DNA of 64,000 nucleotides from Geovibrio thiophilus. GTDB lineage: Bacteria > Chrysiogenota > Deferribacteres > Deferribacterales > Geovibrionaceae. Positions 54,129 through 55,441 of the stretch are shown here, piece after piece; positions within the stretch are counted from its first letter, which is position 1, and each line of letters starts with the position of its first letter. The notes beneath the pieces are model-generated. The model worked only from the letters and a program-made list of their open reading frames with translations. It searched no databases and had not been told where the DNA came from. The DNA lies in assembly GCF_004087915.1 (NCBI RefSeq), contig NZ_CP035108.1, forward strand, positions 1,674,001 to 1,738,000, in the 5' to 3' direction. Made by a program: the position numbers and the translations under genes.

Positions 54129-54917
54129 ATGGAAAATTATATCAGAAAATTTGGGCGCAATTTTATTGATCTTGCCGTTTTTTTTCACGGGTTTACCATC
54201 TTCTCAAACAAGGTTATAAAAACCTTTTTCAAGCTTAAGTTATTTAACCCTGCGGTGGGGTTGGTCTTTGTCAGACAGATATATTTCACGGGCGTTCAGA
54301 TCCTCCCTGTTTATATCGTTATATCGCTCATAATAGGCGTTGCCATGGTTGGTTCGCTGATGCAGGCGGCGGATCTCGTCGGCGGAATTGATCAGTTGGG
54401 AAGAATCATGGTTGTCATATCATTCAACCAGATCGCCCCTCTCGTCACATCCATACTCCTTGCGCTCCGTTCCGCCACGGCGGTAACCGCCGAAATCGCG
54501 CTGATGAAAATGAACAGAGAGATAGACACGCTTCAGTCACTCTCCATAGATCCGTTTGAATATCTTTATCTTCCCCGAATCGCAGCGGGCGTTATATGTA
54601 TGATGGCGCTCTCCACTATATTCGTGTGCGTATCGCTTCTCGGCGGCTATTTTATCCTCAGCTTCCTTCAGGATATGTCGCTGGACTACATGCTGACCAC
54701 TATATTTGACAACCTCGAAGTTTTGGATATTATCACCTTCCTTGTAAAGGTTTTCTTCCTCGGTTTCGCCCTGATGAGCATACCGATCTACACTGCTCTT
54801 GAAACCAAGGAAGCAGTCACTGAAATACCCATTGCCCTGCTGAGAGGAATGATGAGACTTTTTTACGCGTTCATACTCATACAGATATTCACCGTTATGC
54901 TGGGGATGTACCTATGA
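54129..54917 (+). CDS. mlaE: Mla phospholipid transport permease MlaE
   Basis: 262 residues. MlaE/permease domain with five or more hydrophobic spans and the conserved FVRQIYFTGVQILPVYIVISL, IAPLVTSILLALRSATAVTAEIALMKMNREIDTLQSLSIDP. Forms the inner-membrane core of the Mla-type (MCE) lipid transporter that moves phospholipid between membranes. Next to a P-loop-less MlaF relative and MlaD, with ATGA overlap. Start at ATG without ribosome site suggests leaderless translation. Confidence 0.9.
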   Translation: MENYIRKFGRNFIDLAVFFHGFTIFSNKVIKTFFKLKLFNPAVGLVFVRQIYFTGVQILPVYIVISLIIGVAMVGSLMQAADLVGGIDQLGRIMVVISFNQIAPLVTSILLALRSATAVTAEIALMKMNREIDTLQSLSIDPFEYLYLPRIAAGVICMMALSTIFVCVSLLGGYFILSFLQDMSLDYMLTTIFDNLEVLDIITFLVKVFFLGFALMSIPIYTALETKEAVTEIPIALLRGMMRLFYAFILIQIFTVMLGMYL

Positions 54918-55441
54918 CAAGCACATTTATCTACTACACCAGCGAAACACAGAAAGACGAATGGCTCTCAAGAATACTTGAATTTACGGACAGAGAGCAC
55001 ATAGGTATTGTTACAAGCAGACTTCCCGTCATAGGCAATCTTTCCGTTTTTGAAAACATCATGCTGCCCGCAAGTTATCACTTCAACCTCAGTCTGAAGG
55101 AAGGACGGAAGATGATAGAGAACGATCTCAAGCGGCTGGGAATCTCTCATGTAATTGATGCAAGACCGGATTTCCTCACTGATTATGAAAGACTTCTTGT
55201 CAAGTATCTTCAGGTGACCTACCTTCAGCCTAAGTGGATAATCATTGTCAGCCCCAGAAGGATGTACGCCGCCGAATACGAAGAGAAATTCAAGGATTTT
55301 TTACGTTGTGAAACAAGAGATAATTCGGTTATTATCGATCATATAAACCACAGGTACCTGTTTCAGGATCTCGAAAACTACACGGAGCTGGATTTTGAAT
55401 TATGGCTGGAAATAAATTTGCGAACCTCGAACTCAAAGTAG
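54914..55441 (+). CDS. Degenerate MlaF-like ABC ATPase lacking the P-loop
   Basis: 175 residues, occupying the MlaF position. No Walker A: the protein starts downstream of where it should lie. The Q-loop region is recognisable, SRLPVIGNLSVFENIMLPASYHF, compared with MlaF-type LTVxENVxLP. The signature region reads DYERLLVKYLQVTYLQPKWIIIVSPRR, with no LSGGQ and no DEP. So it should not hydrolyse ATP. Its start overlaps mlaE and its end overlaps mlaD by 40 bases, so it is retained as part of the complex. An ATPase in trans or a non-ATP role is implied. Confidence 0.8.
   Translation: MTSTFIYYTSETQKDEWLSRILEFTDREHIGIVTSRLPVIGNLSVFENIMLPASYHFNLSLKEGRKMIENDLKRLGISHVIDARPDFLTDYERLLVKYLQVTYLQPKWIIIVSPRRMYAAEYEEKFKDFLRCETRDNSVIIDHINHRYLFQDLENYTELDFELWLEINLRTSNSK

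Follow-up and report, generated by a model that had tools for sequence, protein, structure and literature searches.

The direction and the energy source of Mla/MCE lipid transport have long been disputed. The described systems closest to the locus reported here are MlaFEDB and the minimal MlaEFD of the Veillonella type with its long MlaD, in which MlaE is likewise combined with a single-MCE MlaD carrying a long helical extension; overlapping mlaF and mlaD genes, as here, are found in MlaEFD systems, according to a survey across bacteria that relied on synteny and an MlaF profile alone to identify MlaF (PMC10665443). In Brucella, the Mpc system (MpcE-F-D-A) has the same four-gene set of permease, F protein, MCE needle and lipoprotein, and its single-MCE needle has been proposed to bridge to the outer membrane lipoprotein (PMC12436622). 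MCE systems that have no ATPase are on record as Pqi and Let (PMC10897342, PMC12436622); PqiABC and LetAB are MCE bridges with an inner-membrane component lacking an ATPase and, in the case of Pqi, with an outer membrane lipoprotein. In mycobacteria, several MCE permeases share a single ATPase, MceG, which acts in trans and is required for their stability (PMC9947336).

The operon mlaE2-pF-mlaD2-LP lies in a window of 64,000 nucleotides from the complete genome of Geovibrio thiophilus (2,997,552 bases) and has, in the position of mlaF, a gene for a P-loop-less protein named pF.

The mlaE2-pF-mlaD2-LP operon

The genome has another mla operon besides this one; the search for another MlaF, suggested by the sequence-only reading of the window, located one in an intact E-F-D operon at 1.633-1.635 Mb. 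The four consecutive genes all overlap, by 4, 40 and 4 nt respectively (Table 1), and pF alone is placed between mlaE2 and mlaD2, no catalytic ATPase gene being present within the operon. MlaE2 matches PF02405 with 154.7 bits versus 275.8 bits for the canonical MlaE of the same genome, and has the permease domain and the coupling helix of an MlaE protein, while MlaD2 provides the MCE domain of an Mla/MCE transporter. In particular, MlaD2 consists of one MCE domain and, behind it, about 190 residues of predicted coiled coil, as indicated by matches to coiled-coil families. No Pfam family was matched by LP, and its comparison with PDB structures gave weak TPR matches (best E 6.7e-3), so that the TPR-like label, which rests on a helical-hairpin model, is tentative.

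Table 1. Features of the locus, in positions of the window.
Feature	Position	Strand	Basis or remark
mlaE2, divergent MlaE-family permease, 262 aa	54129..54917	+	PF02405 4.1e-45
Coupling-helix region of MlaE2	54519..54578	+	EIDTLQSLSIDPFEYLYLPR; counterpart of EQIDAL...PR in canonical MlaE (alignment of 48 MlaE proteins)
ATGA overlap, mlaE2 stop/pF start	54914..54917	+	sequence
pF, P-loop-less pseudo-MlaF, 175 aa	54914..55441	+	alignments, profiles, AlphaFold model
pF residues 36-57, post-Q-loop permease-docking stretch	55019..55084	+	RLPVIGNLSVFENIMLPASYHF; conservation mean 0.657
Degenerate signature and helix of pF	55175..55222	+	LTDYERLLVKYLQVTY; canonical MlaF there LSGGMRKRVGLARAIA
pF/mlaD2 overlap, 40 nt	55402..55441	+	mlaD ATG 55402-55404 inside TGG codon 55403-55405 of invariant Trp164
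mlaD2, MCE protein, 327 aa	55402..56385	+	PF02470 3.5e-9 at 42-117
LP, lipoprotein, 229 aa	56382..57071	+	lipobox AAAC; all-helical TPR-like model; overlaps mlaD2 by 4 nt

The start codon of mlaD is embedded in the Trp164 codon of pF (xxA TGG, window 55402-55405). The invariance of Trp164 in the pF family may thus be due to the overlapping mlaD start rather than to protein function, and the functional meaning of this residue is weakened because its TGG codon holds that start. A third MCE system is encoded elsewhere in the genome by a LetB/PqiB-like open frame of 1051 aa, in which the MCE domain is matched seven times (G000:C1:2949340-2952021, loci L071-L077).

Fold, motifs and conserved surface of pF

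No Pfam family matches pF. Searched alone against the PDB by phmmer, it retrieves ABC ATPases at 2.8e-5, and the profile of the 36-member pF family does so at 5.9e-10; compared profile to profile (hhalign), the family matches the canonical MlaF proteins of its phylum at 1.6e-9, with 112 columns aligned. The AlphaFold (AF2) model of pF (pLDDT 90.3, pTM 0.87) has ABC nucleotide-binding domains (NBDs) as its best Foldseek matches in the PDB (1.2e-8), with E. coli MlaF (7ch7_C; 5.8e-7, TMq 0.74) among the matches, and this model and these matches rule out an unrelated fold. The sequence-only reading had aligned pF by eye with the Q-loop to D-loop part of MlaF-type ATPases, and the profile and structure comparisons with MlaF agree, the alignment extending from the Q-loop to beyond the Walker B/D-loop. 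The likeness needs to be refined in two respects: the Gln of the Q-loop is itself gone, Ser35 of pF being aligned with Gln88 of the MlaF of the same genome, and about 60 residues comprising Walker A and the beta-subdomain have been lost, a short strand-helix (residues 3-28) standing in their place. pF has therefore the fold and homology of an ABC NBD, but its beta-subdomain is missing.

The absence of Walker A, LSGGQ and the Asp-Glu pair, also claimed from the letters alone, is confirmed in pF and in all its P-loop-less relatives. Walker A is lacking in every one of these truncated proteins. Its pattern was searched for at 77 homologous loci, a few of them repeats of the same genome, in three frames and with flanks of 300 nt upstream and 100 nt downstream; none was found, nor, consequently, any frameshift hiding an upstream P-loop. 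In the place of the signature, pF has LTDYE where its own MlaF has LSGGM, and in the pF family the Leu is retained and the Glu often, nothing else; the Walker B Asp and the catalytic Glu are absent, IIIVSP of pF corresponding to IILYDEP of MlaF. His143 of pF is near the position of the H-loop His, where the alignment shifts by one, and is not conserved across the family. With such a set of residues, ATP hydrolysis by pF is not expected. As Walker A and the signature are both missing from pF, the ABC mechanism implies that a pF:MlaF heterodimer would be without a complete composite ATP site.

In ABC transporters, the stretch following the Q-loop faces the coupling helix of the permease. In the pF family, conservation is highest in this stretch, residues 36-57 (0.657), and in the helix after the former signature (0.647). 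Within the stretch, P38, N48 and Y55 are invariant; 5 of the 154 segments of the same length in pF are as conserved, and the top one begins at residue 31. The lowest conservation is that of the first 30 residues (0.367 vs 0.657). The coupling helix of E. coli MlaE links TM2 and TM3 and touches MlaF (PMC7790496). The alignment of 48 MlaE proteins reveals that its residues are altered in MlaE2, which has E-I/L-x-T-L versus the canonical EQIDAL. Because the docking stretch is the most conserved and the coupling-helix region is retained, pF is probably a structural remnant that docks on MlaE2.

Conservation in Deferribacterota and spread beyond the phylum

The operon with pF is present in 38 of 51 Deferribacterota genomes; the search, at a threshold of 1e-4, matched 39, and G033 was left out as its protein, which adjoins a canonical MlaE, is most likely a canonical MlaF. 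The genomes with a divergent, low-scoring MlaE2 are the same 38, and pF is located directly behind mlaE2 at every locus whose sequence was fetched. In nearly all the Deferribacterota homologues mlaE2 and pF overlap by 4 nt, and the pF/mlaD overlap is 28-43 nt. The dN/dS ratios, approximate since a number of dS values approach or exceed 1, are 0.03-0.15 for pF and 0.02-0.05 for canonical MlaF. Judged from its sequences, pF is an old functional gene under purifying selection. The NBD fold, the conservation, the purifying selection and the conserved operon bear out the proposal of a pseudo-ATPase in the mlaF slot; that it is not a decayed pseudogene, originally argued from its overlaps with mlaE2 and mlaD2, is upheld by its occurrence in 38 of 51 genomes and by its dN/dS.

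Loci with pF were also found outside Deferribacterota by a profile scan of genome contigs, which was performed with a 10-row alignment and is biased to proteins with the [IV][GS]NLSV.EN motif. Whole-genome searches, in which up to 8 candidates per genome were scored, found P-loop-less homologues in at least about 21 of the 397 genomes of the G053 phylum (labelled Helicobacter, Campylobacterota) and in at least 12 of 395 genomes in the phylum of G051 (labelled Pseudomonadota, with a near relative labelled Deltaproteobacteria); they are separated from the ordinary ABC ATPase background by E-values better than 1e-19 and are mostly short, many being even shorter than pF at the N-terminus. Open pF reading frames are available from the 38 Deferribacterota genomes and from about 30 others. 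The E-pF-D-LP order is common to the three phylum-level groups: at the outside loci that were read, MlaE is upstream, and MlaD and a lipoprotein are downstream unless the copy is interrupted or cut off (L132 and L160). The presence of the same operon in two further phylum-level groups rules out a lineage-specific oddity. In the MlaE tree, all the P-loop-less operons fall on one side of one branch (26 rows, support 100/100), as they also do with 38 rows. On the evidence of these trees and gene orders, pseudo-MlaF is an old trait common to one clade that spans at least three phylum-level groups.

Full-length, motif-dead MlaF proteins are encoded in three other genomes (L136, Kiritimatiellia; L138, a Chlorobiota MAG; L188), which indicates that catalysis has also been lost with the whole domain retained. 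A Nitrospirota MlaF (L133:933-1712 and L135:3800-4579) has an intact Walker A, the signature LSLGE and a Walker B Asp-Asp (DDP, the catalytic Glu being replaced by Asp), and is possibly a weak or inactive ATPase. In the MlaE tree, the motif-dead full-length operons and those of Nitrospirota fall between the P-loop-less clade and canonical Mla, so that stages of motor loss appear to be still alive; owing to long branches (1.5 for L136), the order of the intermediates, and a single versus repeated loss among the full-length ones, are unsure.

In a MAG labelled Helicobacter cetorum (L132:4383-6366), genes for an AAA_15-type ATPase and an HNH nuclease, which we take to resemble a two-gene defence pair of the Septu-like kind, are located between pF and mlaD; this contig may be misbinned or laterally acquired, as its MlaE2 groups with the phylum of G051. 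One MAG contig (L131:3424-4122) carries an in-frame pF-mlaD fusion without the MCE domain and, upstream, a split mlaE, which suggests deletion, assembly error or decay.

Proposed mechanism, alternatives and known systems

The explanation to which we give somewhat better than even chances is a four-part MCE module in which pF is a non-catalytic structural NBD remnant docked on MlaE2 and lipids cross an ATP-free bridge. The MlaF subunit of the operon would have been reduced to this remnant, which would dock on the MlaE2 coupling helix, neither binding nor hydrolysing ATP, and would keep the MlaE2 dimer in the shape required by MlaD2; MlaD2, with its MCE ring and long helical stalk, and LP would together make up a lipid bridge, passive or driven by a gradient, that leads to the outer membrane in a mode likened to that of the ATPase-less Pqi and Let systems. 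The physical docking, the ATP-free transport, the lipid substrate and the bridging by MlaD2 and LP are what we infer in this scheme. A bridge to the outer membrane fits the single MCE domain and long predicted coiled coil of MlaD2 and the lipoprotein nature and TPR-like model of LP. For the broader proposal that an old multi-phylum MlaE-MlaD class runs without ATP, its ABC motor turned into the structural clamp of a passive or gradient-driven bridge and the intermediates still alive in other phyla, the chances seem evenly balanced.

The ATP-free bridge is confronted with the fact that a canonical MlaE is encoded in every pF genome except the fragmented MAG G393 and that, where it was read, its neighbour is normally an intact MlaF, so that an ATPase could be borrowed nearby, as MceG is borrowed in trans by several mycobacterial MCE permeases (PMC9947336). 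Canonical MlaF might accordingly power MlaE2-MlaD2, with pF as an assembly factor, place-holder or alternating regulator, a reading that is tenable although rather unlikely. The intact E-F-D operon of the same genome, the persistence of canonical mlaE alongside pF in all those genomes, the coupling helix retained by MlaE2 and the MceG precedent are in its favour; the co-occurrence, however, says little, because nearly all these genomes have canonical mla, whether or not they carry pF, and the coupling helix of MlaE2 does not carry the EQIDAL residues. Moreover, a heterodimer of MlaF with pF has no complete ATP site, which leaves either ATP-free transport or the displacement of pF by canonical MlaF. 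Being tied to mlaE2 in an overlapped operon, pF is more simply read as a subunit of the MlaE2 complex.

It is improbable that pF acts mainly as a regulator or decoy on canonical Mla, for example by binding MlaF or canonical MlaE, rather than as an MlaE2 subunit: the NBD surface facing a permease, which it retains, would suit this role, but its gene lies between mlaE2 and mlaD2 with overlaps of 4 nt and 28-43 nt in nearly all the Deferribacterota loci, is not found away from mlaE2 and is missing wherever mlaE2 is missing. An active ATPase with a non-standard nucleotide site is very improbable. Nothing was found in its support; the strand-helix of residues 3-28 sits roughly where an ABC ATPase has the strand and helix of Walker A, but it belongs to the least conserved part of the protein and is shortened further in many relatives of other phyla. 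Finally, a frameshifted, misassembled or recently decayed mlaF has practically no probability left and is ruled out by the open frames in 38 plus about 30 genomes, by the dN/dS of 0.03-0.15 and by the lack of any P-loop remnant.

A strongly conserved natural MlaE-MlaD system whose F protein is unable to use ATP offers a direct test of the role of ATP, and an MlaE with an ABC-like neighbour gene need not mean an ATP-driven pump. The graded motor loss, from an intact P-loop through motif-dead full-length proteins to P-loop-less ones, allows one to trace an ABC transporter becoming something else; the finding is of value because the variant is widespread and old and because intermediates survive. 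No description of pseudo-ATPases of MCE or ABC systems like pF was found in the searchable literature, where absence is not proof, and the accessible part of the Mla survey makes no mention of a degenerate MlaF (PMC10665443).

In comparison with MlaFEDB and MlaEFD, the F protein is here truncated and without any catalytic motif, MlaE2 forms a separate divergent clade and a lipoprotein gene follows mlaD2. Brucella MpcF is a regular MlaF-like ATPase, whereas pF is dead, and the place of the PqiC-like MpcA is taken by LP, which is TPR-like and matches no Pfam family. PqiA and LetA are unrelated to MlaE and work with MCE proteins that contain several MCE domains; the present operon combines an MlaE permease, one MCE domain and an NBD remnant. 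Neither the mycobacterial Mce operons nor this one has its own gene for a catalytic ATPase; Mce operons are not known to contain an NBD-like protein, unlike the present one, in which the slot is occupied by a dead NBD-like protein. ABC transporters with one degenerate site retain nucleotide binding and one working site; they have lost NBD catalytic residues, as has pF, but in pF the P-loop and the whole beta-subdomain are deleted.
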